A DNA stretch of 13,322 nucleotides from Mariprofundus sp. (GTDB lineage Bacteria; Pseudomonadota; Zetaproteobacteria; Mariprofundales; Mariprofundaceae), in the NCBI GenBank assembly GCA_030951095.1, contig JAUZQI010000073.1, positions 1 through 13,322 on the forward strand. Direction: 5' to 3'. Of the stretch, positions 1-13,269 are shown piece after piece; position 1 is the stretch's first letter; the number at the start of each line of letters is the position of its first letter. The position numbers and the translations under genes were made by a program. Under the pieces are notes generated by a model. The model ran no database searches. It was not told where the DNA came from and saw nothing but the letters and a program-made list of their open reading frames with translations.

Positions 1-167
1 CCAACGCCGGCTGCCGCCAGATAATAGGCGACAGGCGAACCCAGGCCGCCAGCACCGATCATGAATACTTTCGATTCGAGTAGCTTCGACTGCCCTTCCG
101 CACCGACTTCCGGCAAAATAATATGCCGCGAATAGCGCTCGATTTGTTCTTCCGTAAAATCAATCAT
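1..167 (-). CDS. moeB: MoeB/ThiF/HesA-family E1-like adenylyltransferase, N-terminal part
   Basis: Only the first 55 codons are in the window; the gene runs off the left edge. The translation begins MIDFTEEQIERYSRHIILPE and continues into GAEGQSKLLESKVFMIGAGG, then LGSP and AYYLAAAGVG. This is the classic start of the MoeB/ThiF/HesA family: the RYSRHIxLPE motif, then the glycine-rich nucleotide-binding loop GAGGLGSP. These enzymes adenylate the C-terminal glycine of a ubiquitin-like sulfur carrier so that it can be turned into a thiocarboxylate. The nearby CysO-like gene is the obvious substrate. The start is the ATG at 167; a GAGG lies about 12 nt upstream, a rather distant ribosome site. 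It is last in the visible operon, 82 bp after cysK. moeB, thiF or a dedicated carrier-activating paralogue cannot be told apart from this fragment. Confidence 0.88.
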   Translation of the reverse strand, partial: MIDFTEEQIERYSRHIILPEVGAEGQSKLLESKVFMIGAGGLGSPVAYYLAAAGV

Positions 168-188
168 GAAAATCTATAACCTCTTTTT

Positions 189-241
189 ACCGCAAAGGAC
201 GCAAAGAAAATCTTTTACAAATCCTTTGCGTACTTAGCGGT
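189..241. repeat. Imperfect inverted repeat of the CGCAAAG type
   Basis: The left arm ACCGCAAAGGACGCAAAG (189-206) is answered by CTTTGCGTACTTAGCGGT (224-241), with two mismatches inside the arms. Each arm is itself a near-tandem of a 9-bp unit (CGCAAAGGA/CGCAAAGAA on the left). It fills most of the cysK-moeB spacer. A related half-copy occurs at about 6801-6816. From memory, such strings are frequent in spacers of many environmental bacteria; their function is unknown. The hairpin lacks a proper U tract, so I do not call it a terminator. Confidence 0.6.
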
Positions 242-249
242 GAAAGCTT

Positions 250-1182
250 TTAAACTTCGATGCCTTTGAACAGGTCCGTGGACATATAGCGTTCGGCCAT
301 GGATGGCAGAATCACTACAATACGCTTGTCCTTCATTTCAGGCCTATCGGCTACTTTGAGCGCTGCGGCAACGGCTGCGCCGGATGAAATACCGCCGGGA
401 ATGCCCTCTTCGCTGGACAGACGGCGCGCCATTTCAAAAGCTTCGTCATTGGTGACTTTGACTGCGCCATCGAGAATATCGACGTTCAAATTGGCCGGAA
501 TAAAGCCTGCACCAATACCCTGAATCTTGTGCGGACCGGGGGCTTCACCTGAAATAACCGGCGAATCGGCAGGCTCCACGGCAAATGCCTTGAAGTTTGG
601 GTTACGCTGTTTGATCACTTCGGCAACACCGGTAATGGTGCCGCCGGTACCCACGCCTGCCACGACTGCATCTACGTTGCCATCGCAATCACTCCAAATT
701 TCCTGTGCAGTTGTTTGACGGTGAATCTCCGGGTTGGCCGGGTTTTCAAACTGCTGCGGCATAAATGCCCCGTCGATATCGGCAACAATATCGGCAGCCT
801 TGGCAAGAGCTCCTTTCATACCCTTTTCAGCCGGGGTCAACACCAGTTCGGCACCAAGCAATTTGAGCAATTTGCGGCGTTCCAGACTCATGGATTCAGG
901 CATGGTCAAAATACAGCGATAACCTTTGGCACGCGCCACAAAAGCCAGCGAAATGCCCGTATTACCGGAAGTCGCCTCGACAATCACGCCGCCCTCTTTG
1001 AGGCTGCCATCGGCTTCGGCTGCCTCAATCATCGCCTTACCAATACGATCCTTGACCGAATTCAGCGGGTTATAAAACTCGCATTTGGCAATGATTTCCG
1101 CCCCGGTATTCGCGCCGATGCGATTCAATCGAATCAACGGCGTATTGCCGACCGTTTCTGCTGTATTATTGTATATCGCCAT
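250..1182 (-). CDS. cysK: Cysteine synthase, O-acetylserine sulfhydrylase type (CysK)
   Basis: This fold-type II PLP enzyme of 310 aa makes cysteine from an activated serine (O-acetylserine in the CysK group) and a sulfur donor. The PLP lysine is K44 in NSVKDR. The substrate-carboxylate loop TSGNTG is at 71-76, the phosphate-binding GTGGT loop lies near 178-182, and the C-terminus carries the ERYMSTDLF signature. The segment [12 protein letters not shown] is typical of CysK. The O-phosphoserine-using CysM of the mycobacterial CysO system differs there (the arginine-containing ALRNMDEG region), so I favour O-acetylserine as substrate. The ATG at 1182 is preceded by AAGGAG six bases upstream; the TTG six bases earlier is not needed. 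It lies between the NIL gene and moeB, in an operon with a CysO-like carrier, so it could take sulfur from a carrier thiocarboxylate as well as from free sulfide. That second role is inference. Confidence 0.93.
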
Positions 1183-1213
1183 ATCCAACTCCTTTGCATT
1201 ATAATCTTTTCAA

Positions 1214-1245
1214 TTACAGATGAACGCAGATAAACACAGATTTTG
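1214..1245. repeat. Short periodic spacer repeat (ACAGAT / CAGAT units)
   Basis: The spacer between the NIL gene and cysK contains ACAGATGAACGCAGATAAAC followed by ACAGATTTT: three CAGAT words spaced 10-11 bp apart. Read on the minus strand it is ATCTG...ATCTG...ATCTG. I recall strings like this from spacers of unrelated bacteria. No coding sense is seen. The rest of this 190-bp spacer holds a palindrome CCCATGGG (1289-1296) and the hairpins listed separately. Confidence 0.55.
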
Positions 1246-1304
1246 TTTTCTCTCTGCATGCAACAACCTTGAAAAACATCCACGTAGCCCATGGGTGGGT
1301 CGCC

Positions 1305-1361
1305 AAAATCAAGGCTTGTCATTGATTTTGTGAACCGGAAGAAAACCACGTTTTCTCCCGG
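1305..1361 (-). terminator. Two tandem hairpins after the NIL gene; possible attenuator or RNA-processing site
   Basis: Read on the minus strand, the NIL stop codon is followed 11 bp later by a 12-bp stem with one mismatch and a 3-nt loop (1335-1346 pairing with 1350-1361). A second stem follows, AAAATCAA/TTGATTTT with a 9-nt loop (1305-1312 with 1322-1329). The first stem has no real U tract; the second ends in TTTT as part of its own stem. Termination would separate thrC-cysO-NIL from cysK-moeB and would probably be partial. An RNA-stabilising or processing role is equally possible. Confidence 0.4.
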
Positions 1362-1372
1362 TGCTCAAACAA

Positions 1373-1612
1373 TCAGCCTTCGATGACATCCTGTTCAATC
1401 GGAGCCACGTTCACGCCCTGTTCAACCAGCCATTTTGTTGCAGCCTCAACCACGGCATCCTCGCCATCAATTTCCAGACCAACCAAACCCATATGATCTT
1501 TCACTTCGGCGGTACGGATATTGGTGATGACATCAAACTCTTTGGCCAGCTTCCAGATCAGCGGTTCGCGAACCGTAGACTCATCAAAGGTCAGGTAAAC
1601 GCGCAACTGCAC
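1373..1612 (-). CDS. Free-standing NIL-domain protein
   Basis: This 79-aa protein consists of a single NIL domain. The start (MQLRVYLTFDES), the pattern REPLIWKLAKEFDV, and GLVGLEIDGED followed by AAxKWLxEQGVNV match the ferredoxin-like NIL fold, best known as the methionine-binding C-terminal domain of the MetN transporter ATPase. NIL domains also occur in small NIL-ferredoxin proteins linked to homocysteine formation in methanogens. No cysteine cluster is present here, so it is not a ferredoxin fusion. I chose the GTG at 1612 because it overlaps the carrier stop codon (TAGTG), implying translational coupling; the frame could be read from a TTG at 1618. Its place between a sulfur carrier and a cysteine synthase suggests a binding or sensing role in sulfur transfer, but no function can be read from sequence alone. 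Confidence 0.85.
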   Translation of the reverse strand: MQLRVYLTFDESTVREPLIWKLAKEFDVITNIRTAEVKDHMGLVGLEIDGEDAVVEAATKWLVEQGVNVAPIEQDVIEG

Positions 1613-1890
1613 TAGCAACCGCCTGCAATTGCCGGCACGATGGACACTTCATCACCATCTTTCAGCGCCGTAGCGCGACCTTCCAGAAAACGCACATCTT
1701 CATCATTCACATAGACATTCACAAAGCGGCGAATTTCACCAGCCTCGTCACACAGGCGCTCTTTCAGGCCCGGGTGCGCTGCTTCCAGATTGTCAATAAT
1801 TTCGCCGACATTCGCACCTTCAATCGACACTTCATCAGCACCGCCCGTCAATTTACGCAGCGGGGTTGGAATTCGTACAGATACACTCAT
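1612..1890 (-). CDS. cysO: CysO/MoaD/ThiS-like ubiquitin-fold sulfur carrier ending in Gly-Gly-Cys
   Basis: This 92-aa beta-grasp protein resembles mycobacterial CysO: it starts with an [11 protein letters not shown] segment and contains [18 protein letters not shown], then [16 protein letters not shown]. Carriers of this group are adenylated by a MoeB/ThiF-type enzyme at the C-terminal glycine, then loaded as a thiocarboxylate that donates sulfur to a PLP enzyme. Here the gene does not stop after Gly-Gly: the codons GGC GGT TGC TAG give Gly90-Gly91-Cys92. The terminal Cys must be removed before activation, normally by a JAMM/Mec-type peptidase. None is visible; it could lie beyond the left edge. 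A good ribosome site (AAAGGAG, 6 nt before the ATG) fixes the start. It lies 164 bp after thrC and overlaps the NIL gene by one base. Confidence 0.9.
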
Positions 1891-1951
1891 TTCTTTCTCC
1901 TTTCATTTTTCATCTTATCTCTAATTTATCATTTAACCGTAGCCGTTCAGA

Positions 1952-2030
1952 TTGCCTGGCTGTTGTTCGCTGGCAAGGCAAAAGCGTGCAGCTTACTACT
2001 GCAAGTGAGCACTTTTAACGCAACCCGCGG
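1952..2030 (-). other. thrC-cysO spacer with a possible stem-loop
   Basis: The 164-bp spacer contains, on the minus strand, TGCAG-TAGTAAG-CTGCA (perfect 5-bp stem) inside weaker flanking pairing AAAAGTG/CGCTTTT. This is only suggestive of a weak processing or attenuation structure. Nearer cysO the minus strand is A-rich (GATAAATTAGAGATAAGATG) and includes an 8-codon ATG frame ending in the cysO start; this is probably chance. No gene is seen. Confidence 0.25.
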
Positions 2031-2054
2031 GCAACAGACAGGTGAGCTGAATGA

Positions 2055-3302
2055 CTACGCGGCGGCTTCAAAGCCATCAGCTTCCGCCAGCGCATCAAAA
2101 TCTTTCAGGCTGGCATCAATGATGCGCGGCTTGTTGATTGCATCAGCAATAGCTTCCTGGGTTTTCAAGCCATTGCCGGTAATGCACAACACTATCGATT
2201 CATCACGCGGCAAACGCCCGGATTCAATCAACTTTTGGGCGCAGCCAAGGGTTACGCCGCCGGCTGTTTCAGCAAAAATACCTTCGGTTTCGGCCAGCAG
2301 CTTCATGGCCGCCACCACTTCGTCGTCCGAAATATCTTCGGCCCAGCCGCCGGACTCATTAATCACGCGATTGGCATAAAACCCGTCCGCCGGATTACCA
2401 ATCGCCAACGATTTGGCAAGCGTGTCGGCAATCACCGGATGAATCAGATCTGTGCCATCCTTGACCGATCGGGAAATCGGCGAGCAACCGGTAGCCTGTG
2501 CACCATACATCGCCGTATTGTTATCCTCGATCAGGCCCAGTTTGATAAATTCCTTGATCGACTTGTCAATCTTGGTGCACAGCGAGCCCGATGCCATCGG
2601 CACCACGATATGTTTGGGCGCTTTCCAGCCCAGTTGCTCCATCACTTCATAACCCAGCGATTTGGAGCCCTCGGCATAAAATGGCCGCACATTCACATTC
2701 ACAAACGCCCATCCATATTTACCGGCCACTTCCGAGCATAAGCGGTTCACATCATCATACTTGCCCTTGATGCCGATAATGCGTGTGCCAAAAATACCGG
2801 CACCGAGCACCTTGCCCTGCTCCAGATCATGCGGAATAAACACATAGGATTCCAATCCTGCCGCCGCCGCGTTGGCAGCCACGGAACCGGCCAGGTTACC
2901 GGTCGAGGCGCATGCCACCGTCTTGAATCCGAACTCGACCGCCTTGGACAGTGCCACAGATACGACGCGATCCTTGAAGGATAACGTCGGATAACACACC
3001 GAATCATTCTTGATATATAACTCGGATACGCCCAGTGCCTTTTCCAGATTTTTGGCGCGCACCAACGGCGTAAAACCATTCTGCGCTCCGACAGTTGGCT
3101 CGCCATTAATCGGCAGCAGTTCTTTATAGCGCCACATGGTCTGCGGACGCGACTCAATCAATTCACGGGTGAAATAACCATCGAGTTTGTCGTAGTCATA
3201 GACGACTTCCAGCGGCCCGAAACAAAACTCGCATACATGCGTGGGTTCGATATCGTATTCCTGACCGCACTCTCTACATTTCAGTGCACGAACAATGTTC
3301 AT
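2055..3302 (-). CDS. thrC: Threonine synthase family PLP enzyme with N-terminal zinc ribbon
   Basis: A 415-aa fold-type II PLP enzyme annotated by family as threonine synthase, which converts O-phosphohomoserine to threonine plus phosphate. The N-terminus has a zinc ribbon with C9-x2-C12 and C24-x2-C27. The PLP lysine is K109 in TLSFKDR, followed by CASTGNLAGSVAANAA (substrate loop) and by MASGSLCTKI. The ATG at 3302 has GGAG nine bases upstream; an upstream TTG at 3338 is rejected because it would place the start at the terminator U tract. It is first in an operon with a CysO-like carrier, a NIL protein, CysK and a MoeB-like enzyme, and it sits directly under a SAM-I riboswitch. That regulation is unexpected for plain threonine synthesis. 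An alternative activity, replacing the phosphate of O-phosphohomoserine with sulfur to give homocysteine, deserves testing but is inference. Confidence 0.9.
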   Translation of the reverse strand: MNIVRALKCRECGQEYDIEPTHVCEFCFGPLEVVYDYDKLDGYFTRELIESRPQTMWRYKELLPINGEPTVGAQNGFTPLVRAKNLEKALGVSELYIKNDSVCYPTLSFKDRVVSVALSKAVEFGFKTVACASTGNLAGSVAANAAAAGLESYVFIPHDLEQGKVLGAGIFGTRIIGIKGKYDDVNRLCSEVAGKYGWAFVNVNVRPFYAEGSKSLGYEVMEQLGWKAPKHIVVPMASGSLCTKIDKSIKEFIKLGLIEDNNTAMYGAQATGCSPISRSVKDGTDLIHPVIADTLAKSLAIGNPADGFYANRVINESGGWAEDISDDEVVAAMKLLAETEGIFAETAGGVTLGCAQKLIESGRLPRDESIVLCITGNGLKTQEAIADAINKPRIIDASLKDFDALAEADGFEAAA

Positions 3303-3336
3303 GTGCCTTATCTCCAATTTCGACGAGCCCAGAAAC

Positions 3337-3365
3337 AAAAAAACCTCCGCGATAAAGCGAAGGTT
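3337..3365 (-). terminator. Intrinsic terminator of the SAM riboswitch expression platform
   Basis: On the minus strand AACCTTCGC-TTTATC-GCGGAGGTT forms a 9-bp stem (one G-U or mismatch) followed at once by seven T residues. No minus-strand gene lies between the promoter and this hairpin, and it stands only about 35 bp before the thrC start. It therefore terminates the thrC leader rather than an upstream gene, as expected for a transcriptional riboswitch. Confidence 0.85.
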
Positions 3366-3407
3366 GTATCATAGAGAATGCACGCATGTGCATTAAACGA
3401 ACAACCC
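3361..3407 (-). promoter_or_regulatory. Probable antiterminator of the riboswitch
   Basis: On the minus strand GGGTTGT (3407-3401) can pair with ACAACCT (3367-3361; six Watson-Crick pairs plus one G-U). It would enclose a perfect hairpin AATGCAC-ATGC-GTGCATT (3377-3394). The first strand overlaps the 3' side of riboswitch stem P1 and the second overlaps the 5' arm of the terminator, so antiterminator formation excludes both. This is the usual logic of SAM-I OFF switches. Pairing was judged by eye. Confidence 0.6.
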
Positions 3408-3538
3408 GCATCATCGCTCCCTTGAGGTTTCCCTCTCAGGCAGGCATTGGCACCATTCTCCTCAGCGTTCTTTCGAACATCTTTGGCGGTTGCCGCAGTA
3501 TCATAGGGCCTGCACCCTCCACCGCTCTGGATAAGCCG
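3407..3538 (-). promoter_or_regulatory. SAM-I riboswitch (S-box leader)
   Basis: The minus strand reads GCTTATCCAGAGCGGTGGAG, then GGTGCAGGCCCTATGATACT, then GCGGCAACCGCC, and later GGTGCCAATGCCTGCC. These match the conserved core of SAM-I riboswitches: P1 5' strand with AGAG, the kink-turn GGTGGAGGG, GGCCC, the ATGA-AC joining region, GCAACC, and the GGTGCCAA-CCTGC segment of P3. P4 is GAGG-GAAA-CCTC with a GNRA-type loop. P1 closes with GATGATGC near 3407-3415, with one bulge. The aptamer of about 130 nt is normal in size. It is followed by an antiterminator and terminator, so high S-adenosylmethionine should stop transcription into thrC-cysO-NIL-cysK-moeB. Confidence 0.92.
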
Positions 3539-3557
3539 GATTTAATATGTAATGCGA

Positions 3558-3585
3558 ATTATCATGTCCCATTCACAAAACGCAA
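3558..3585 (-). promoter_or_regulatory. Probable sigma70-type promoter of the riboswitch operon
   Basis: On the minus strand TTGCGT (3585-3580) is separated by 16 bp from GATAAT (3563-3558, five of six matches to TATAAT). The predicted start near 3551 lies about 13 nt before riboswitch stem P1, which fits well. The -35 match is weak (three of six). Confidence 0.5.
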
Positions 3586-3643
3586 GCCTTATTCGCATCA
3601 TCCAACCATGCAATCGATTACCCCCATAAGAACGCTATGCTTT

Positions 3644-3811
3644 TTAGGGAAGTGCTGATTAAACCTGGTTTGATGAGACCGCAATGGGAAATGAAGGAGC
3701 TCAAGGCAAAGATTGCAAGGCATAGCACCGCTATGGCTCAAACCTTTAACGAAGAAATCGTTCATTTCCCATGTAGGATCGTGAATCATGGTTTGATCAG
3801 CGCTTCCTTAG
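3644..3811. mobile_element. Palindromic MITE-like element with IS5-like ends and TTAG target duplication
   Basis: The terminal inverted repeats GGAAGTGCTGATTAAACC (3648-3665) and the reverse complement of 3790-3807 (GGAAGCGCTGATCAAACC) match at 16 of 18 positions. TTAG flanks both sides (3644-3647 and 3808-3811), which fits the YTAR target duplication of IS5-type transposition; the GGAAG start also resembles IS5 ends. Inside are further perfect arms: ATGGGAAATGAA (3684-3695) with TTCATTTCCCAT (3761-3772), and CATAGC-ACC-GCTATG (3721-3735). The whole 160 bp can fold as one long hairpin. There is no transposase gene, so it would need an element elsewhere in the genome. It lies between the thrC-operon promoter and mrp. 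Confidence 0.75.
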
Positions 3812-3840
3812 TGTACAAACGTTTTCTTCTCAAATTGCAT
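3808..3840 (-). CDS. Possible 10-codon ORF with a strong ribosome site (unrecognised)
   Basis: The minus strand has AAGGAGGAGAAG directly before an ATG that opens MQFEKKTFVH and stops at TAA; the stop lies in the target duplication of the MITE and would also have existed before insertion. The ribosome site is better than that of most real genes here. The peptide has no run of regulatory codons (no Thr, Met or Cys run), so it is not an obvious attenuator leader. It may be chance or the remains of a leader cut off from its target by the insertion. Confidence 0.2.
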   Translation of the reverse strand: MQFEKKTFVH

Positions 3841-3928
3841 CTTCTCCTCCTTATCCAAAGCGCAGCGGCCCCGGCTGATTGAACACAGCAGGGGGATTTT
3901 CATATATGTCTTACTGAAATCGTATAAC

Positions 3929-3957
3929 TTGACAGTTTTACTCGGGATTACGACGAT
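3929..3957 (+). promoter_or_regulatory. Weak candidate promoter for mrp
   Basis: A perfect -35 box TTGACA (3929-3934) is followed after 17 bp by GACGAT (3952-3957, three of six matches), which would start transcription near 3964, just before the ribosome site. The alternative -10 TATAAC at 3923-3928 lacks a clear -35. The real promoter is uncertain. Confidence 0.3.
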
Positions 3958-3979
3958 GCCGTCCGTGATGGAGGTTCCC

Positions 3980-5050
3980 ATGCTTGCAGAAGCCGATATT
4001 CTCAAAGCCCTTTCCAGTATTATTGATCCTGATTTCAATAAAGACATCGTCACCCTTGGTTTTGTAAAAAATATCACCATCAATGGTGGTGCCGTTTCCT
4101 TCACCATCGAACTGACTACGCCAGCCTGTCCGGTCAAGGAAGAATTCCGCAGACGAGCGGATGAAGTCGTATCCATCCTGCCCAGCGTTAGCGAAGTCAA
4201 TATTACGATGAGTTCCAAAATGACAGATGGCCGGAGCAAGGAAGCGATTACCGGTGTCGCCAATATTATAGCCGTAGCATCAGGCAAGGGTGGTGTAGGA
4301 AAATCCACCACGGCTGTTAACCTGGCCGTGGCTATGGCTCAAACCGGTGCCCGGGTCGGACTGCTGGATGCCGATATCTACGGCCCTTCTATTCCGCGCA
4401 TGATGGGTCTGGCGGGCTATAAGCCGGAAATTGATTATGATAAAAAAACATTCTACCCGCTGGAAAATTATGGCGTAAAAACCATATCCATCGGTTATCT
4501 GGTGGAAGAAAATCAGGCTATGATCTGGCGAGGCCCCATGGTTTCCGGCGCCTTAAGCCAGTTGCTCACCGATGTGGTGTGGGGTGAACTGGATTACCTG
4601 TTTGTCGATATGCCGCCGGGAACCGGCGATGTGCAACTGACACTAACCCAGAAAGTGCCTGTCACCGGCGCTGTGATGGTCACTACTCCACAGGATATTG
4701 CACTGCTGGATTGCCGCAAGGGTATTGAAATGTTCAAAAAGGCAGGTGTTGCCACGCTCGGGATTGCCGAAAATATGAGCCAGTTCATCTGCCCGCACTG
4801 TGGTGAATCCAGTTCGATTTTCGCCGAAGGCGGTGCTGATCGGCTCAGCCGGGAATACAACACCAGCGTACTGGCCCACATCCCGCTGGATATATCTATT
4901 CGCGAAAAATCCGATGAAGGCACACCGATTGTGGCAGCCGCGCCGGATTCGGAGCCAGCCAAAGTTTATCATGCGCTGGCCGGCGAAGTAGCGCGCAAAA
5001 TCAGCATCTTAAACAGCCGAAAAATTGATATCCCGGTTATCGCACAGTAA
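3980..5050 (+). CDS. mrp: Mrp/ApbC-type Fe-S cluster carrier ATPase
   Basis: A 356-aa cytoplasmic P-loop ATPase that carries and delivers iron-sulfur clusters. Residues 1-75 form a MIP18/DUF59 domain (ALSSIIDPDFNKDIVTLGFV, then TTPACPVK with C50). The deviant Walker A GKGGVGKST is at 102-110, followed by DADIYGPSIPRMMG (130-143), the DMPPGTGD segment at 210-217 and the metal-binding pair C271-P-H-C274. Length and order match full-length Mrp. I chose the ATG at 3980 because GGAGG sits five bases upstream; upstream starts at 3929, 3956 and 3968 add residues not needed by the family. It is the only plus-strand gene, diverges from the thrC operon, and ends one base before the stop codon of the convergent HIT gene. 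Confidence 0.95.
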   Translation: MLAEADILKALSSIIDPDFNKDIVTLGFVKNITINGGAVSFTIELTTPACPVKEEFRRRADEVVSILPSVSEVNITMSSKMTDGRSKEAITGVANIIAVASGKGGVGKSTTAVNLAVAMAQTGARVGLLDADIYGPSIPRMMGLAGYKPEIDYDKKTFYPLENYGVKTISIGYLVEENQAMIWRGPMVSGALSQLLTDVVWGELDYLFVDMPPGTGDVQLTLTQKVPVTGAVMVTTPQDIALLDCRKGIEMFKKAGVATLGIAENMSQFICPHCGESSSIFAEGGADRLSREYNTSVLAHIPLDISIREKSDEGTPIVAAAPDSEPAKVYHALAGEVARKISILNSRKIDIPVIAQ

Positions 5051-5051
5051 A

Positions 5052-5501
5052 TCAGGCAGGCGCGTTGTTTGTTTCATGTTCATCAACACCAGTCATTCCA
5101 CTACCTGAAAGGAGCGTCCGCATACGCAAGCATAAAGCATCTGCATCATGCTTGCTGTAGGCAAGCGCTGGCAACTTTCCCCATACCGGTGCCGGCCAGA
5201 CAGGATCAGTTCTATATCGTACAATGTGGTGAATATGCAGTTGTGGAACAATATTTCCCAATGCCGCAATGTTGATTTTATCGGCGTTAAATTCTGTTTC
5301 GATACATTTGGCCAGCAAGGAAGATTCTCGCATCAGTTGTTGCTGATCCTCACCTGATAACTGATGGGCTTCGCTAATGTCTTGTCGCTGCGGCACTAGA
5401 ATGAACCAGGGATACTGGCTGTCATTCATCAGCAATACCACAGAGAGAGGGAACCGACCCAGCACAAAACAGTCCTGCTTTAATTGCGGATGCAAAATCA
5501 T
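5052..5501 (-). CDS. HIT-family (histidine triad) nucleotide-binding protein
   Basis: A 149-aa member of the HIT superfamily, enzymes that hydrolyse or transfer nucleotides through a histidine. The motif is NIVPQLHIHHIVR (83-95): Q87-L-H89-I-H91-H92-I. Glutamine occupies the first position of the usual H-x-H-x-H triad, while the nucleophile-position His (H89) and the next one (H91) are kept. Downstream TDPVWPAPVWG is typical of a proteobacterial HIT subgroup. The N-terminal RFPLSVVLLMNDSQYPWFIL half also fits. The ATG at 5501 has AAAGGAGG just upstream. Its substrate is unknown. It lies at the distal end of a minus-strand run after the UPF0178 gene, separated by a palindromic element, and converges on mrp. 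Confidence 0.85.
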   Translation of the reverse strand: MILHPQLKQDCFVLGRFPLSVVLLMNDSQYPWFILVPQRQDISEAHQLSGEDQQQLMRESSLLAKCIETEFNADKINIAALGNIVPQLHIHHIVRYRTDPVWPAPVWGKLPALAYSKHDADALCLRMRTLLSGSGMTGVDEHETNNAPA

Positions 5502-5511
5502 GATGCCTCCT

Positions 5512-5581
5512 TTAGGGAGATGCTGATTTAGCAAGCCGCCCATGGCCTGCACGGAAACGCAGATTTAATCAGCGCGCCCTC
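5512..5581. repeat. Short palindromic element related to the MITE ends
   Basis: TTAGGGAGATGCTGATTTA (5512-5530) is mirrored by the reverse complement of 5563-5581, which begins TGAGGGCGCGCTGATTAAA. Both arms contain GCTGATT after GGG, like the ends of the element at 3644-3811. It fills the whole 67-bp gap between the UPF0178 stop and the HIT start. The UPF0178 stop codon lies inside its right arm, and the HIT ribosome site (AGGAGG, 5507-5512) abuts its left edge. No clear target duplication is seen. Confidence 0.5.
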
Positions 5582-6024
5582 AGATGCCTGGCCAGAAAGC
5601 TGTCCAGTTGATTGGCAAAACGTTGTCGATCTGCAGCGCCGAATGCCGCCGGGCCGCCTGTAACTACACCTTCGCCGCGCAAGTTATCCATAAAGTTACG
5701 CATGCTTAGCGCCCCGCGAACATTATCTGAAGTGTACATTTCACCTCTCGGATTCAAAGCAAAACTACCCTTCTCAATCATCCCCGCAGCCAATGGAATA
5801 TCAGCGGTAATTGCCAGATCACCCGCTTTGGCATGATCGACGATATAATCATCGGCCACATCGGGGCCTGCAGCAACTATAACCGCATTGATATATTCGG
5901 ATTTGGGGTGTTGAAGTTTTGCGTTGGCCACTAATGTCAATGCAATACGGACACGATCGGCAGCGCGAAACAAAATCTCTTTAATCACCTTGGGACAGGC
6001 ATCAGCATCCACCCAGATGCGCAT
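5569..6024 (-). CDS. yaiI: YaiI/YqxD-family protein (UPF0178, DUF188)
   Basis: A 151-aa protein with the strongly conserved N-terminus [20 protein letters not shown] and further family blocks: [34 protein letters not shown]-like ([13 protein letters not shown]), and a C-terminal GGP-FG-DRQRFAN-LD segment. Length matches E. coli YaiI. The family has a PIN-like set of acidic residues (D6, D8 and the [10 protein letters not shown] aspartates), suggesting a nuclease-like fold, but its biochemical role is not established. It starts in a TAATG overlap with the upstream nucleotidyltransferase stop, so the two are translationally coupled. The last residues (HLRAR) and the stop are encoded by the palindromic element at 5512-5581. 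Confidence 0.92.
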
Positions 6025-6704
6025 TAATGGCTCAGCAAACGGCTGGCCTTCATCAAATCACAGGGCCGACCAATATCAAACCAGAAACCATGGTGTGCCA
6101 GTCCCTTGCATGCGCCTCTGGCAATCATCTCGCGAATGGATCGGGCCAAAGAAAATATTTCATCCGAATCATAATGTTCAAACACAGATTCATCCCAGAC
6201 CGATACACCGGCAAAGGTAAACCGGTCATAACCACTCATCGACACATCATCTCCATGCAGGATAAAATCACCGTTCAGATGATGCTGCGGGTTTTCCACC
6301 AGCGCAATGCTGCAACCGCTTTCCGGTGCCATAAGCGCCAGACTGGATATATCGATATCAGCCAGCACATCACAGTTGTGAACAACAACGGGGCCTCGAC
6401 CCGGCAGCATCGACAATGCTTTTTTTACGCCGCCACCGGAATCCAGCAATGTTTCTTCATAACTGATACAGATATGGCAACCGAACTTCGCCCCATCGCC
6501 CAAATAATCAGCCAGTTGATTGGCATGGTGGAATGCATTCACGGCAATCTCACGCACCCCAAGGGCAACCAATCGCCGGATGACATGCGCAATTGCCGGC
6601 TTACCCGCCACCCGCACCAACGCTTTAGGGCGATGGCTGGTCATCCATTTCAATCTTGTTCCCATGCCCGCCGCTAAAATAACAGCGCGATCCATTCGCT
6701 CCAT
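6024..6704 (-). CDS. murU: Nucleotidyltransferase, MurU-like (NDP-sugar pyrophosphorylase family)
   Basis: A 226-aa protein of the sugar-phosphate nucleotidyltransferase family. The nucleotide-binding signature [20 protein letters not shown] ends in PK (P26-K27), followed by [30 protein letters not shown] (82-97) and the metal-binding NCDVL (110-114, D112). A C-terminal [10 protein letters not shown] is typical. The short length without a C-terminal hexapeptide domain and the LLDSGGGV motif resemble MurU, which makes UDP-N-acetylmuramate from N-acetylmuramate-1-phosphate in peptidoglycan recycling. The usual kinase partner AmgK is not in the window, so the substrate is tentative. The ATG at 6704 is preceded by GGAG eight bases upstream; upstream extension reads into a hairpin. 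Confidence 0.8.
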
Positions 6705-6726
6705 GCCCGTCTCTCCATAGATTTCT

Positions 6727-6780
6727 CTTAAAAGGTACACTGATTTAATCCATTTTGAATTGAATCAGTGTACCTTTAAC
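6727..6780 (-). terminator. Strong hairpin after the patatin gene; possible terminator or palindromic repeat
   Basis: AAAGGTACACTGATT (6731-6745) and AATCAGTGTACCTTT (6763-6777) are perfect inverted arms. They extend to about 19 bp with one G-U pair, and the loop is about 9 nt. On the minus strand it lies 89 bp after the patatin stop and ends CCTTTTAAG, a poor U tract. It could end the mutS-patatin transcript, or form a 5' stem-loop in the murU leader. Its CTGATTTAAT core recalls the palindromic elements at 3644 and 5512. Confidence 0.5.
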
Positions 6781-6788
6781 TCCAACCA

Positions 6789-6816
6789 ACTATAAATCTT
6801 GAACCGCAAAGTATGC
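6789..6816. repeat. Half-copy of the CGCAAAG repeat with a -10-like box beside it
   Basis: GAACCGCAAAGTATGCAGA (near 6800-6818) resembles the arms of the repeat at 189-241. On the minus strand it runs into TATAGT (6794-6789), five of six matches to a -10 box, which could serve murU-yaiI; no good -35 is seen. Confidence 0.35.
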
Positions 6817-6865
6817 AGATATTCTTTCCATTACACACGCTGGAGCAAAACGTTTTTAGCGCAAC

Positions 6866-7786
6866 TCACCCGTCCAGTTTTTCAATCAACTCCGGCATTT
6901 TTGCAAGCGCCGCCTGTCTGCCCTTTTCAATTTCCTGCTCCGGATTGGAAAAGTCATGCCACTGCGTAAAACCAACCAGCGGCTCGATAAGCACATCTGC
7001 AAATGTCTTGTTATATTTACGCAAATATAATGATTTAACCTGAGTTGCCCAATCCAGCATACCATAGACATTGGCCGGTTCGTTATATTCACTCGGTCGA
7101 GAGCCCACATTCACAGCCAGAACCAGTTGATCGGAAGTAGTAAGCATTTGCGCTTCCATGGCCGGCAAATCTGATGCCACCCCACCATCTACAAATTTTT
7201 TCCCGCCGATTTTAACCGGATCAAATACGCCGGGGATAGCCATGCTGGCAGCAATCGCACATGGCAACTTTACATCCGAATTGGCCGAGAACAGATGGCA
7301 TTCACCGCTGGGAAACTGTACCGCCGTCACATATAACGGGATTTTAGCATCCTTGAATGATTCCCCGCCACAAAATGCGAATGCAATATCCACCAAAGCA
7401 TCGGTATCGGCCACAGCCAATTCGGTCGCCGCTCTGGTATACAGAAGAGTCTGCTTGGCGGCAGCGCTCAGCTTCGATAACCATCCCTGATCCTGTGTAT
7501 CAGCCTCATCAAGCGAAGGTAAATCCAGCTTGGAAAATGTTTCCGACTGCAGAATTTCACTGGCATGCTGAATCACTGCTCTGGCATCTGGATTCACCGC
7601 ATACATAGCCCCGAACAACGATCCTATACTGCTACCAACAATGGCATCGGGCCTAAAGTTGTGTTGCTCCAGCACATCCAACACACCCAGATGCGCCAGA
7701 CCGCGACCACCGCCACCACCCAACGCCAGCACAAAACCATTTTTCTTTTCTTTTCGATGTTCAAAAATGCGCTCAAGTAAATTCAT
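6866..7786 (-). CDS. Patatin-like phospholipase family protein
   Basis: A 306-aa serine hydrolase of the patatin family (RssA/YchK-like group), expected to act on phospholipid or other lipid esters. The oxyanion-hole segment GGGGGRGLAHLGVL is at 23-36, the nucleophile elbow G51-S52-S53-I54-G55 gives catalytic S53, and the dyad aspartate is D200 in FVDGGVASDLPA. All key residues are present. No signal peptide or membrane segment is visible, so it is probably cytoplasmic or membrane-associated. The ATG at 7786 lies 10 nt after the glnD stop; the ribosome site is weak (GTGGTAG), suggesting translational coupling. An upstream in-frame extension would overlap glnD and lacks family similarity. It is the last gene of the mutS operon. 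Confidence 0.9.
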   Translation of the reverse strand: MNLLERIFEHRKEKKNGFVLALGGGGGRGLAHLGVLDVLEQHNFRPDAIVGSSIGSLFGAMYAVNPDARAVIQHASEILQSETFSKLDLPSLDEADTQDQGWLSKLSAAAKQTLLYTRAATELAVADTDALVDIAFAFCGGESFKDAKIPLYVTAVQFPSGECHLFSANSDVKLPCAIAASMAIPGVFDPVKIGGKKFVDGGVASDLPAMEAQMLTTSDQLVLAVNVGSRPSEYNEPANVYGMLDWATQVKSLYLRKYNKTFADVLIEPLVGFTQWHDFSNPEQEIEKGRQAALAKMPELIEKLDG

Positions 7787-7796
7787 TCTACCACGC

Positions 7797-10358
7797 TCAC
7801 TCTTCCTGCTCCGGCAACGTTGCCACATCTGCAAGGCTTTCACACAGAGCTGTTACCTGTTCCGTCGATAATTGTTTCGATTGCTTACCTGTTATAAAGA
7901 ACACATCAACAGCCCGCTCACCGAATGTTGAGACAGAGGCACCGTGCAGGACATAACCTTCAGTACTGATAACCTCTGCAAGTCTGGCCAATAACCTGGG
8001 CTGGTCGGCAGCAGACACTTCGATAGCTGTCTCCCGAAACGAGGCCTTGGGTAATTCACGTACCCGCACCGGCACGCGTTGCATTAATACGCTCAGCTTG
8101 AAGTTGTTGTCTACTTTCACCTTTTCGATCTCATCCTGCAACAGCAAATGGCCAATACGGGTCTCCATCCGTTCCAGGTCGGATACGACATCGAAGGGAG
8201 TACCATCTGAAGCCTGTAAATGGAAAGCATCCAGCACCCGCTCATCAGTCATTTTATAAGCCTGTGCCGCCACGATACTGGCATGTCCGGAGGTGAGCGT
8301 TGCAGCCAATGCGGCAAACAGTCCATCCCGACCGTGAGCAACAACAAATACCAGTGTTTCAGCTCGTTCCCTGTCTACCCACAGCTGAACAGCATCGCCT
8401 GGATGATCAGCAAGCAACTCAGTGATTTTACGCAACTGCCTTGGTGAAAAGTGCATCACACATGACATCGAAAGCAGACCGATCGCAGCTTGCAGCGATT
8501 CTCTGTTGCCTCTGGCTTTTTCCAGCACGGTTTCAATCCGTATGCGATAACGCTGTTCGCCAGCCTCACCACCAGCCTGATCTCCCTGCAGATGCTGGGC
8601 AGTGGCATGATATATCTCGCGTAACAATGTGCCCTTCCAGTCATTCCAGACATTCGGCCCGACAGCCGCAATATCCGCCACCGTCAGCAACAACAGATAT
8701 TTTAGTCGTTCAAGATCACCTACACGCTGGGCAAACGCGCTGATCACTTCAGGATCGGACAAATCAAAGCGCTGACTCTTGACTGCCATCAGCAAATGCT
8801 CGCGTACCAACCACTCGATCAGCTCAGTGGCATCGCGATTCAGGCCGATGCGCTGGCAAAAGTTGCGCGCAATCACTGCCCCGTTCTCCGAGTGGTCACC
8901 CTCTATACCCTTGGCAATATCATGAAAGAGCAGCGCCATATATAACAGTTCAGGCCGCTTGATTTTATGGCACACTTCATGCGCCAATGGTAACCGCATA
9001 TCACGTCCCCGATGCCAGAAGTTTCTGGCCTCGCCTATTGCCCGCAGGGTGTGTTCATCAACCGTAAAAGCATGGTATCGATTGAATTGGCCAAGCCCCA
9101 CCACATCGCGGAACTCAGGAATGAAACGCCCCAGCACACCGGTAATATTCATCCCACGCAAGGCCCAGTGAACATTCCGATTGCTGCGCAGGATTTGTAG
9201 AAACAATCTGTGCGCCTCAGGATTACTGCAAAATGCGTCATCAATGATCATCACGTCAGCCCGAATTTGTCGCAATGCCTGACTGGAAAGTTTTCTGCGA
9301 TCCTGCTGCGAAACATGGAAAATACGCAGCAACCGCAGGGGATCCTCTTTGAAAACATTGCTATGACTGATGCCGACCAATTGCCCTTCAAGTGTAAAAC
9401 CATTACCGATATTGTGCTTGAATGTGAACCGCTGAGGGTGCAACTGTTCGTTAAAGTGCATGCGCATCAAGCCCGTAATCCGGGAAATCCGGCCCACATG
9501 CCGGAAATAGTCTTTCATAAAGGCATCGACAGCTGGAAGATGATTCACTGACTCGTAGTGCATGCGCTCCGCCAGTACCACCTGCTGTTCAAAACCAAGG
9601 CGATCGGATGCGCGCTTCACTTCCAGGTGCAGGTTGGCCCGGCAACGCCAGAGAAAGTCCTGAGCACTAAGAAGGTGATCCCTTTCCCGGCTGGAAATAG
9701 CCCCTTTATCGACAAGGCCGGCAACATCTTCACAGCCATACCATGCCTTGGCCAACCAGAACACCGTCTGCACATCACGCAAACCGCCCTTACTTTCCTT
9801 GATATCAGGCTCCATCAAAAATGCAGTACCGCCAGTTCGCTTATAGCGATTTTCCAACTCGGCCAACTTGGCTTCTATAAACGCCTTGCGCTGCTTCCTG
9901 AAAAACAGGCCGAGTTTATCCTGCATCTGGTTATAATGATCTCCCTTGCCTGCCAACAAGCGTGACTCCATAGCCGCTGTCGCTGATGACCAGTCCTCGT
10001 TGACATGCAGCAGCGTATCTTTGACCGTACGCACAGCATGGCCAATCTTGGCTCCCATATCCCACAAAGAGAGCAGAAATGCCTGCATCTCCGCCTCGAC
10101 TTTTGCCGGGCATGTATCAGGCACAAGAAACCATAAATCCCAATCCGAACAAGGCGCCAGCTCTCTTCGCCCATAGCCACCCACAGCCACCAAATCCACG
10201 CACGCCGATGCTGTTGGTGCTGTGTTCTGCCACAACTCGATTAAAAAGGCATCCACATTGCGGCACATCAGCGCACTTAATTCAGCGCCGTTATCACCGG
10301 CATCAAAGGCTTCAGAAACCGCATCAAACAGCGACGAAATGATATCCTTGTCAGCCAT
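7797..10358 (-). CDS. glnD: Bifunctional PII uridylyltransferase / uridylyl-removing enzyme
   Basis: An 853-aa glutamine sensor that uridylylates PII proteins when nitrogen is scarce and removes UMP when glutamine is plentiful. The nucleotidyltransferase motif GGYGRRELAPCSDWDL is at 60-75, with metal-binding D72 and D74. The conserved block FLMEPDIKESKGGLRDVQTV follows. The HD phosphohydrolase motif is near residue 480 (LLFHDIAKGIEGDHSENGA). Two ACT domains lie at the C-terminus (about 655-735 and 775-850, the latter with PRLLARLAEVISTEGYVLHGA). The N-terminal region before the catalytic motif is about 20 residues shorter than in E. coli. The ATG at 10358 lies 2 nt after the lipoprotein stop (TAACCATG) without a strong ribosome site, so translation is probably coupled. 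Confidence 0.96.
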   Translation of the reverse strand: MADKDIISSLFDAVSEAFDAGDNGAELSALMCRNVDAFLIELWQNTAPTASACVDLVAVGGYGRRELAPCSDWDLWFLVPDTCPAKVEAEMQAFLLSLWDMGAKIGHAVRTVKDTLLHVNEDWSSATAAMESRLLAGKGDHYNQMQDKLGLFFRKQRKAFIEAKLAELENRYKRTGGTAFLMEPDIKESKGGLRDVQTVFWLAKAWYGCEDVAGLVDKGAISSRERDHLLSAQDFLWRCRANLHLEVKRASDRLGFEQQVVLAERMHYESVNHLPAVDAFMKDYFRHVGRISRITGLMRMHFNEQLHPQRFTFKHNIGNGFTLEGQLVGISHSNVFKEDPLRLLRIFHVSQQDRRKLSSQALRQIRADVMIIDDAFCSNPEAHRLFLQILRSNRNVHWALRGMNITGVLGRFIPEFRDVVGLGQFNRYHAFTVDEHTLRAIGEARNFWHRGRDMRLPLAHEVCHKIKRPELLYMALLFHDIAKGIEGDHSENGAVIARNFCQRIGLNRDATELIEWLVREHLLMAVKSQRFDLSDPEVISAFAQRVGDLERLKYLLLLTVADIAAVGPNVWNDWKGTLLREIYHATAQHLQGDQAGGEAGEQRYRIRIETVLEKARGNRESLQAAIGLLSMSCVMHFSPRQLRKITELLADHPGDAVQLWVDRERAETLVFVVAHGRDGLFAALAATLTSGHASIVAAQAYKMTDERVLDAFHLQASDGTPFDVVSDLERMETRIGHLLLQDEIEKVKVDNNFKLSVLMQRVPVRVRELPKASFRETAIEVSAADQPRLLARLAEVISTEGYVLHGASVSTFGERAVDVFFITGKQSKQLSTEQVTALCESLADVATLPEQEE

Positions 10359-10360
10359 GG

Positions 10361-10678
10361 TTACTTGCAGCGATAGACGTCAAATACCTGTTCACCATCA
10401 ACAATTTTACTCATGGCAACGATCGTATCCCCTTTCATTTCCGCCGCTGAATTGCGGCACAGTGTTTCCAACTCCTCGCTCATCTTCTCCTCTGAACGGG
10501 AAATGAAAGCCACTTTATCCAACACGGATACCGTCGTGCGGCCCAGCTTCTTGCAGCCGTCTATCTGACTGAGATATGCCACCCGTACATTCAAGGCATC
10601 ATTTGTCGGTTCCACCCAAGGACTGCAACCGGACAAAGCAACGACCGCAACCCATAACGTCAAACTGATTCTTTTCAT
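10361..10678 (-). CDS. Small lipoprotein, DUF4156-like
   Basis: A 105-aa protein with a lipoprotein signal: MKR, a hydrophobic stretch to about residue 15, then the lipobox L-S-G-C18. The mature part contains [12 protein letters not shown], a run [20 protein letters not shown] and a C-terminal VYRCK, resembling the DUF4156 pattern of a small envelope lipoprotein with one probable disulfide. Residue +2 is serine, which usually fits outer-membrane sorting. The function is unknown. It starts in a classic ATGA overlap with the mutS stop and ends 2 nt before glnD, so it is cotranslated between two unrelated cytoplasmic housekeeping genes. Confidence 0.85.
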
Positions 10679-13269
10679 ATGTCATCAACCTCTTTTTTTA
10701 ATATATCAAGAAATGTAAGCGCATCCAACGGACGCATCGAATCCACATCCGCCTCCGCCAGTTTATCATGCAGCTGTCGTAAACGCTCCAGTTCCTCTTC
10801 CTGCCGCCTCTTTTCCGCTACAGCAAAAAGCCCCAATTGTGACTTGCCTGTTTCCGCCGCTAATTCGGAGCCATGTTCCAGTCGAAACAGGTGTTCGCGT
10901 GCGCGTTTGATGACAGGACGCGGCAACCCGGCCAACTGCGCTACCGCAATACCATAGGACTGATCGGCCGCATCTTCCACCACCTGGTGCATAAAAATAA
11001 CCGATCCATTCCATTCCCGGACAGTCACAGATGCATTAAAGGCAGCGGCATGTTCATCCGGTAACTCGGTAAGCTCATGGTAATGCGTAGCAAATAACGT
11101 CAACACATCATTTGCAGCAATCAGATGCTCTGCCACTGACCATGCAATGGCAAGACCATCCCAGGTACTTGTACCCCGACCAATCTCATCGATTATCACC
11201 AGAGAACGGGATTCCATCTGGTTCAGAATAGTCGCCGTTTCCATCATCTCCACCATAAAAGTAGAACGCCCGCTGGTCAGTTCATCACCAGCGCCTACAC
11301 GGGTAAAAAGACGTTTGGTTAATGGAATACGCGCCTCTTCCGCCGGCACAAAACAACCGGTATGTGCCAACCAGACAATCCATGCCACCTGGCGCATATA
11401 CGTTGATTTTCCACCCATATTGGGCCCGGTTAACAGCATAAAACGACGAGACTTCAAGTCCATATGCGTGTCATTAGCTACAAACGCCTCATTAGCCGCC
11501 AAATGTCGCTCCACGACCGGGTGCCTGCCACCAACCAGTTTCAGAGCGCTCCCACCATGCACATCCGGGCATATATAGTGGTGCTTTAACGCCAAATGCG
11601 CGAAACAGGCTACCACATCCAGACCGGCCACAGCTCTAGCCGCCTGTTGAATAGCCGGTGCCTGCCCGGAAATCTGTTGTCTGAGTGATTCTACCAGCAC
11701 ATTTTCCCGCTGCATGGCAGCATCACGCGCGCCTAGAATTTCTGATTCAAAACTGTGTAATTCGTCGGTAATAAAACGCTCGGCGTTTACCAGCGTCTGT
11801 TTCCGCACATAATCAACCGGTGCTGATTTGGCCTGCGCCTTGGAAATCTCGATAAAATAACCGAACACCTTGTTGTATTTCACGCGCAAATTAGCCAGGC
11901 CCGAACGTTCACGTTCACGTTGCTCATAATCGCGCAACCAATCGCCCGCATCTTTTGCCAAACCACGCAAACGATCCAGTTCAGCATCAAAGCCTTCCCG
12001 AATGACCCCGCCATCACGGAACGCCTGCGGAGGCATATCAACCAGAGCACTGGCCAGATGACCGGCCAGTGGCTCCAGACCATGCAGTGCTGCAATCATT
12101 TCGATAAACAGACCGCTTCGATCTCCAAGTTGCTGGCGCAACTCAGGCAGAGCCAACAACGCATCAGTTAATCCCCGAAAATCGCGAGGTGCTGCCCGGC
12201 CAAGCACAATACGAGTAAGCATGCGTTCCATATCACGCACACCTGAAAGGCGAGAACGCAAGGCATTCAGCATATCGGAATCGTCCACCATACTCTGTAC
12301 CGCATTTTGCCGTTCGTTTAACAAGTTCAGGTCAGTCAATGGCCGATCGATCCAGTCACGCAGCTGTCGCGCACCCATCGGCGTAGAGGTTTCATCCAAC
12401 ACATGAATCATGCCTGCTTTTGGATCTCCCGCCAGTGAACTGTACAGCTCCAGGTTACGGCGTGAGCGCGCATCAATACGCATGCTATCCGCCTGCTCAA
12501 TAAATACCGGTAACGACAAATGTTCCAACGTGCACTTCTGGGTTTGTCCCAGATAAGCCAAAACTGCGCCGACAGCAGCAGCAGCCTGCTCATGTCCGTC
12601 CAGGTTCAGCGACTGCCAATCTGAAACTCCGAAATGCTGTTCAAGCTGTTCACGCGCAACCGCCACTGAAAAACTCCAGTCTCCAGAGCGGGTGATCGGC
12701 ACATTTTCCAATGATGTTTCAGCCTCTGTCAGCAACAATTCCGCTGGAGCCAATACAGCCAGTTGCTCTTCCAGCCTGGCTTCACCTTGCCCCTCCAGTA
12801 ATCGCCAGTGCCCACAGGATAAATCGACCGAAGCCAATCCCCAGCATTCACCTTCCCTGAAACAAGCGACCAGCGGTGCCGAGCATGCCTGATCGAGCAA
12901 CTCTGACTCGGTAATGGTGCCCGCCGTAACCACCCTCACAACTTCACGTCGAACAGGCCCTTTTGAACCATCCGGCGGCTCCATTTGATCGCAAACTGCC
13001 ACGCGCTTGCCCGCTGCCACCAGCTTGGCCAGATAACCATCGGCCTGATGCCATGGAACGCCAGCCATCGGAATGTCTTCACCGTTAGATTTTCCGCGCT
13101 TGGTCAATGTAATTCCAAGAATTGTTGATGCCTCTACAGCATCCTCGAAAAACATCTCGTAAAAATCGCCCATACGATAAAATAACAGGCAGTCCGCATT
13201 TTCGGACTTGATCTTCAAATACTGCTGCATCATGGGGGTATGGGCGTTGTCATCGGCCTTCTTTGTCAT
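10675..13269 (-). CDS. mutS: DNA mismatch repair protein MutS
   Basis: An 864-aa mismatch sensor of methyl-directed repair. The mismatch-reading Phe-x-Glu motif is F36-Y-E38 in RMGDFYEMF, the same numbering as E. coli. The lever and clamp domains occupy the middle. Walker [10 protein letters not shown] lies near residues 613-621, followed by [20 protein letters not shown] (signature region), Walker [17 protein letters not shown] near 690, and [11 protein letters not shown]. The C-terminus [19 protein letters not shown] is intact. Full length and no visible lesion. The ATG at 13269 gives the usual [12 protein letters not shown] start; upstream is GCGGGC with no good Shine-Dalgarno, and a small hairpin CCCGT-TACATT-GCGGG covers the ribosome-binding area. 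First visible gene of the mutS-lipoprotein-glnD-patatin operon. Confidence 0.97.

Follow-up and report, generated by a model that had tools for sequence, protein, structure and literature searches.

What is made by an operon that starts with an S-adenosylmethionine (SAM) riboswitch and continues with a gene annotated as threonine synthase? This question is raised by a 13,322-nucleotide stretch of Mariprofundus sp. DNA (contig JAUZQI010000073.1 of assembly GCA_030951095.1, hereafter the window), which corresponds to contig C165 of the source genome (G000) and starts at a contig end. The minus strand of the window contains a SAM-I riboswitch followed by genes for a threonine synthase (ThrC)-like enzyme, a ubiquitin-like sulfur carrier, a NIL domain protein, a cysteine synthase, and an E1-like enzyme. 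The switch, its terminator, the gene content, the orthology of the genes, and the failure of searches to find alternative routes are observed directly in the DNA, and together they make it probable that this is a methionine operon, built around a homocysteine synthase (MetM) and its sulfur carrier (MetO), that SAM would turn off.

The initial annotation had placed a SAM-I riboswitch on the minus strand at 3407-3538, followed by a U-tract terminator and five sulfur or amino acid genes in a row, and each of these was recovered with coordinates that had been correct to within one or two bases. The aptamer (3408..3537, minus strand) matched the full RF00162 model (positions 1-108 of 108) with a cmscan score of 60.9 bits (E = 2.4e-12), above the gathering score of 44.4 bits, and was the sole RF00162 match in the 1.65-Mb, 78% complete G000 assembly. 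Immediately downstream on the same strand, GGGUUG (3407-3402) can pair with CAACCU (3366-3361) to form an antiterminator (3361..3407) that rivals the 5' arm of an intrinsic terminator with a U-tract (3335..3365), whose 9-bp stem and T run were found at 3365-3342. When the window leader was folded alone, the antiterminator was formed (z = -2.07 versus shuffled sequences).

The same elements were sought in 35 of the 38 SAM-I leaders from 41 genomes (G000-G040) of the order, presumably Mariprofundales; the leaders of G009, G035, and G036 were left out. By number, terminator-like sites in window positions 1-4000 are at the level expected by chance (4 found versus 5.2 expected); all 35 related leaders have an equivalent terminator between the aptamer and the gene, a count made without a shuffled control, and in some of them the stem sequence has changed with pairing kept. 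The GGGUUG motif is present in 31 of these leaders and GGUUG in 2 more, and where the partner is CAGCCU, the GGGUUG pairing is still possible through G-U pairs. Conservation of the antiterminator is judged from this motif count and not from a longest-pairing test, in which 9 of the 35 leaders (G002, G003, G005, G010, G015, G023, G026, G027, and G038) had other partners and G040 had a variant antiterminator pairing. The first gene starts at an ATG at 3302 with GGAG ahead of it. By sequence and folding, the antiterminator and terminator are mutually exclusive, and the window leader is a classical transcriptional OFF design, from which we infer its response to SAM.

All five genes that follow are on the minus strand. 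The first (2055..3302) encodes a 415-amino acid protein of pyridoxal 5'-phosphate (PLP) fold II with a cysteine-rich N terminus, which is annotated as ThrC (PALP/threonine synthase family) and is predicted here to be an O-phosphohomoserine-dependent homocysteine synthase; we call it metM-like. The second, metO-like (1612..1890), encodes a 92-amino acid carrier of the ThiS/MoaD family (PF02597) that ends in AIAGG-C. Its best match among solved structures is chain 3dwg_C of Mycobacterium tuberculosis (95 bits), which we take to be CysO. The third (1373..1612) encodes a stand-alone NIL domain protein (PF09383, E = 1.2e-12); its GTG start overlaps the metO stop codon (TAGTG), a TTG at 1618 is an alternative start, and against solved chains its product matched NIL domains of MetN only, and weakly (best E = 0.058). 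The fourth (250..1182) is cysK, encoding cysteine synthase A (TIGR01139, 449 bits with a cut-off of 351), whose product scored below the cut-offs of the CysM models. The fifth (1..167) is a moeB/thiF-type gene for an E1-like adenylyltransferase with a ThiF/MoeB match, of which the N-terminal 55 amino acids are present because the window starts at the contig end. The pairing of a CysO-like carrier with an E1 that had been proposed from the window is thus borne out.

The metM-like gene was compared across the 41 genomes of the order. It is carried by 39 of them, as a full-length orthologue in 36 (82-100% identity; the G010 copy has a stop inside the matched stretch), as a partial gene in G009 and G034, and as a contig-end stub in G036; it was not found in G032 or G037. 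A separate ThrC of ∼355 amino acids, 33-36% identical to the metM product, is present in 36 of the 41 genomes (fragmented or incomplete in G035 and G037 and interrupted by a single in-frame stop in G038), and in G008, the sole region profiled, it follows the gene for homoserine dehydrogenase (hom). Since 34 genomes contain both genes, the proposal that the lead gene is the sole threonine synthase of its clade was rejected.

In a quick, midpoint-rooted tree, 85 MetM rows fell on one branch with a support of 99, with the Nonomuraea protein, which stands in for the Streptomyces albulus MetM sequence in our comparisons, inside it and 21 ThrC rows outside; in this tree the branches to the CysK row and to ThrC_L139 are long, and the support for the ThrC group is only 7. 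In an alignment that left out ThrC_L139 and short rows, 37 positions separate 100 MetM rows from 20 ThrC rows. Lys110, S133-T134-G135-N136, and Lys164 are common to both groups, and the MetM rows have an AxGSL loop in place of the GNAGN of ThrC. The position equivalent to residue 88 of the T. thermophilus enzyme is Leu (Leu137) in 100 of 100 MetM rows and Thr in 20 of 20 ThrC rows; the functional meaning of these active-site positions, including the role of Thr88 and the catalytic Lys, is presumed here. The lead gene product neither groups with the hom-linked ThrC nor has Thr at position 88, the two features expected of a threonine synthase, so the initial description of an operon led by thrC did not stand.

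A different view is that the lead gene encodes a true threonine synthase, or a bifunctional one, and that its control by SAM balances O-phosphohomoserine between threonine and methionine; several observations count for this view and against MetM. The metM product scored 266 bits against the TIGR00260 threonine synthase model of NCBIfam (cut-off 167 bits). No second ThrC was found in G000 (78% complete) or in four other metM carriers (G004, G009, G021, and G040), in which a double role is possible. In addition, a Microcystis ThrC reported to share 51.6% identity with MetM produced threonine in vitro, and this MetM relative is described as having threonine synthase and deaminase activity, as lacking a SAM riboswitch, and as not fully acting as MetM in vivo (PMC12172450). 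Against a threonine synthase stand the separate ThrC in 34 of 39 metM carriers (beside hom in the one checked), the 37 group-specific residues with their loss of Thr at position 88, and the 27 of 41 genomes that would then show no homocysteine synthase (see below). We regard a threonine synthase under SAM control as improbable; the lead gene is most likely a ThrC paralogue that, as judged from its sequence, is best read as a MetM homocysteine synthase. SAM control is expected of a lead gene of that kind.

Other routes to homocysteine were sought in the same genomes. The search for MetX was negative in all 41 order members (best match 23 bits). MetA is present in 14 of 41, and a full PF01053 enzyme is present in the same 14, adjoining MetA in each and of the MetY type in the sole case profiled; the PF01053 matches were listed sorted by score, and the remaining ones are weak. 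A full PF01053 protein was not found in G000, within the 78% of that genome that is covered. In 27 of the 41 genomes, 8 of which are 98-100% complete, the searches recovered no other known homocysteine synthase, and metM, whole or partial, is present in 25 of these 27. Three points weigh against MetM as the route to homocysteine in the order: 14 of 41 genomes keep MetA and the MetY-type enzyme as well, G032 and G037 show neither metM nor another homocysteine route, and the MetX model cut-off of 500 bits was reached by no match, controls included. The gap in G032 and G037 may be explained by incompleteness or auxotrophy.

The NIL gene in the operon raises the alternative that the HcyBio (DUF39)/NIL-ferredoxin route supplies homocysteine from aspartate semialdehyde and that the window NIL protein is a part of this route. 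Methionine synthesis in Desulfovibrio requires a NIL/ferredoxin protein, according to a 2018 study that also noted that at least one further homocysteine route remained undiscovered (PMC5764234). However, none of 61 genomes gave an HcyBio (PF01837) match in a search that was positive in the controls Methanosarcina, Methanocaldococcus, and Synechococcus, and a ferredoxin domain was not detected by Pfam in the window NIL protein. This route was rejected on the PF01837 result, and we consider it extremely improbable here.

Outside the order, none of the 19 more distantly related genomes of the phylum (G042-G060) yielded a metM-like gene, and their two best matches fall with ThrC in the tree; all 19 have either MetA or a MetX-model match of 132-487 bits, which, like those of the control genomes, is below the cut-off of that model. 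In G056 and G057, a single SAM-I lies just upstream of a MetX-like gene, and such genes are the usual kind of SAM-I target. G041 contains metM and the same operon order, and MetX, MetA, and SAM-I were not found in its search. Enzymes that would act before and after MetM are widespread: homoserine kinase (ThrB) is present in 30 of the 31 genomes searched for it (27 above the cut-off; the G000 copy is in two pieces), and MetH is present in 37 of 41 order genomes (a search that covered MetH, not MetE).

The operon recurs together with its switch. Of 20 relatives fetched, 19 have the complete metM-metO-nil-cysK-moeB order, and in the 20th the contig ends before moeB. Among the 41 order members, 38 have SAM-I upstream of the metM-like gene and on the same strand; the exceptions are G032 and G037, which have no metM, and G034, in which only residues 177-414 of MetM were found. 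By record titles, metM relatives occur in Zetaproteobacteria, Desulfobacterota-type bacteria, Nitrospirota, Verrucomicrobiota, Omnitrophota, Methylomirabilota, and others. The named loci analyzed are the best 80 of at least 584 confirmed relatives and so are best matches rather than a random sample. Among those with enough sequence, 68 of 73 have metO ≤1.5 kb behind metM, and 42 of 66 have NIL ≤2.5 kb from metM; at a distance of up to 6 kb, 34 of the 80 have an E1 gene and 31 have a cysK-like gene. SAM-I lies upstream of metM on the same strand in 42 of the 80. It was found in 25 of 50 genomes of the named loci, and of those 25 loci scanned, 24 have SAM-I ahead of metM, all with matches above the cut-off (the L122 locus had no match in the direct scan); it is likewise ahead of metM in 18 of the other 30 named loci. 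Other operon genes lie between the switch and metM in, for example, L058, L068, L103, L114, L124, and L127. These data support the earlier proposal of one SAM-switched operon, predicted from sequence, that is linked to homocysteine.

As a separate observation, metM-metO-nil is immediately followed by a ThrC-like gene in 7 of the best 80 named loci (L079, L085, L090, L102, L104, L125, and L131), all with Nitrospirota-type titles, so that both presumed users of O-phosphohomoserine adjoin there.

The gene content also allows the operon to be seen as serving mainly cysteine synthesis. CysO serves CysM in M. tuberculosis, and MetO could serve CysK in the same way, with MetM using free sulfide. The best solved match of MetO is the M. 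tuberculosis carrier 3dwg_C, and cysK follows within the operon, as this explanation would have it. Across the named loci, however, the carrier adjoins metM in 68 of 73, as compared with 31 of 80 that have a cysK-like gene within 6 kb (contig ends limit both counts), the operon enzyme is of the CysK type with CysM models below their cut-offs, and in relatives a CysM-like gene is located elsewhere. We consider a mainly cysteine-directed operon unlikely. The claim that the module joins cysteine and homocysteine synthesis was upheld for homocysteine, whereas the cysteine link comes down to the position of cysK in the operon. CysK as the sole cysteine synthase was likewise not supported: all 31 genomes searched have a second enzyme, ∼36-41% identical (incomplete in G004 and split in two in G018), and its best model was CysM, below that model's cut-off, in 3 of 3 profiled.

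A JAB peptidase match (PF14464, at least 50 bits) was found in 48 of 48 genomes in which residues follow the MetO GG or MetO is fused to NIL; the residues after GG are often one and variable, and 3 of the 48 have MetO-GG-NIL fusions. This comparison began with 70 loci, of which 5 were dropped because they had no MetO above 90 bits (L060, L065, L076, L082, and L099); L130, which has no GG, was set apart from both classes. The genome search covered 80 of 92 genomes (G004, G005, G006, G009, G014, G017, G019, G021, G032, G034, G036, and G037 were left out), and G061 and G025, with equal scores, very likely represent the same genome, in which case 48 would be 47. In G000, a Prok-JAB match of 75 bits with HSHP and the following D is present on contig C103 (G000:C103, L144:1779-2282); there is no JAB gene within the window.

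Where MetO ends exactly in GG, a JAB match of at least 50 bits was found in 7 of 16 genomes and was not found in 9 of 16, which are Verrucomicrobiota (7 by title, L073 and L093 by their place in the tree). The idea that a JAB peptidase is always needed was thus rejected. The association of a tailed MetO with JAB gave a Fisher p of 4e-7; since clades repeat and the genomes are not independent of phylogeny, we treat it as evidence from one independent event or at most a few. Both this dependence and the mixed occurrence of JAB among exact-GG genomes weigh against a general link to carrier processing.

In some delta-type and Omnitrophota genomes, MetO and NIL are encoded by one open reading frame joined just behind AIAGG (complete in L058, L059, L066, and L069; cut by a contig end in L132), two of which were checked by Pfam, and L123 has a carrier-E1 fusion too. 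Ubiquitin is released from fusions by cleavage, and we liken the processing of a MetO precursor to this. We suggest, tentatively and at well below even chances, that MetO is a masked or fused precursor cleaved by JAB, that the NIL half is a methionine sensor on MetM, and that feedback would then be exerted by SAM on the RNA and by methionine on the protein. Two further observations concern these families. At ∼1939-2349 of L130, a MetO-like protein has AIAAG instead of AIAGG, and a JAB match was not found in its genome. At G041:C8:14320-15574 (L152), the gene immediately downstream of a CysM-like gene encodes a desampylase-like JAB peptidase, and the two resemble a CysM-Mec+ pair.

Protein-thiocarboxylate methionine synthesis was reportedly described in Wolinella succinogenes by Krishnamoorthy and Begley in 2011 (HcyS/HcyF/HcyD). 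In that system the C terminus of the carrier is masked, the peptidase is of the JAMM type, and the acceptor is MetY with O-acetylhomoserine. The window operon shares with it a masked ubiquitin-like carrier (GG-C in the window), an E1-like enzyme, and a JAMM-type peptidase in the G000 genome, but its predicted acceptor is a ThrC paralogue rather than MetY, and the peptidase gene is not in the window. The CysO-CysM-Mec+ system of M. tuberculosis is similar in its carrier, the best match of MetO, and in the JAB peptidase of the G000 genome; it differs in that the operon enzyme here is CysK and the usual neighbor of the carrier is MetM.

The closest counterpart is a SAM riboswitch-controlled metM with a MetO carrier reported for Streptomyces albulus (Hasebe 2024, doi 10.1128/aem.01247-24, as cited in PMC12172450), and this 2024 report has overtaken the view in the initial annotation that SAM control of such an operon is not a standard arrangement. 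As described there, both have a ThrC-like PLP enzyme, a MetO carrier, and a SAM riboswitch upstream of metM; in the Nonomuraea locus SAM-I, metM, and metO are all present, and its MetM falls in the same clade as that of the window. The window operon differs in its added NIL, CysK, and MoeB genes, in the residue after the GG of its MetO, and in belonging to an order in which 27 of 41 genomes have no other known route that was found. Since MetM/MetO has been reported in Streptomyces, we place the window operon as a variant of it, apparently a longer form distinguished by NIL, CysK, the E1, and a masked carrier.

Operons with ThiS/MoaD, E1, JAB, and cysteine synthase genes were listed by Iyer in 2006 (Table 1, rows 4b-4e; PMC1779556). 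They share the carrier, E1, and cysteine synthase with the window, and one, from Pelobacter, includes O-acetylhomoserine sulfhydrylase; in the portion available of that paper, NIL, methionine, and homocysteine are unmentioned, and threonine appears once, as a residue. In Bacillota, thrC is preceded by T-boxes and not by SAM-I, and tandem SAM-I elements precede hom1, as reported in PMC12452182. A search of the literature on zetaproteobacteria, NIL, thiocarboxylate, and MetM, outside which most subscription papers fell, found no description of the window operon, nor is it mentioned in the available parts of PMC4239095 and PMC3766115.

Based on these comparisons, a working model for the window operon can be proposed, in which the chemistry, the SAM response, JAB processing, and the roles of CysK and NIL are predictions. 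When SAM is low, the leader would adopt the antiterminator and the operon genes would be transcribed; when SAM is high, its binding would close the P1 helix of the aptamer, allowing the terminator to form and transcription to end. A JAB peptidase encoded elsewhere would strip the extra residue after the GG of MetO, and MoeB would adenylate the exposed C-terminal GG and aid its conversion to a thiocarboxylate. MetM would then exchange the phosphate of O-phosphohomoserine for sulfur, supplied by MetO or as sulfide, and the homocysteine so formed would be methylated by MetH. CysK may make cysteine or draw on the same sulfur source, and the NIL protein is probably a methionine-binding or docking partner.

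Other features of the window lie in and around the operon. Repeat-like sequences, CGCAAAGGACGCAAAG and ACAGATGAACGCAGATAAACACAGA, occur in gaps between operon genes (185-245 and 1205-1245), and sequences like these are presumably common interspersed repeats. The ∼150 bases between the riboswitch and an mrp-like gene (3655-3805) contain an inverted pair (3684-3698 with 3758-3772) and outer ends that are alike by eye, and they resemble a small transposon remnant. The rest of the window (3929-13269) encodes a NUBPL/Mrp-type P-loop NTPase on the plus strand and then, on the minus strand, a HIT protein, YaiI/YqxD, a nucleotidyltransferase, a patatin-like protein, GlnD, a DUF4156 protein, and MutS.

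For those Mariprofundales genomes in which an acyl-homoserine route is not seen, the window operon provides a candidate path to homocysteine. It suggests that the threonine synthase label of genes in the metM clade is wrong, and it predicts that proteins of this clade (the relatives used here are at least 54% identical) with a MoaD-like neighbor are MetM and not ThrC. Automated calls of auxotrophy could overlook the MetM route. Finally, the MetO-NIL fusions and the link to JAB would make ubiquitin-like precursor processing in amino acid synthesis directly testable.

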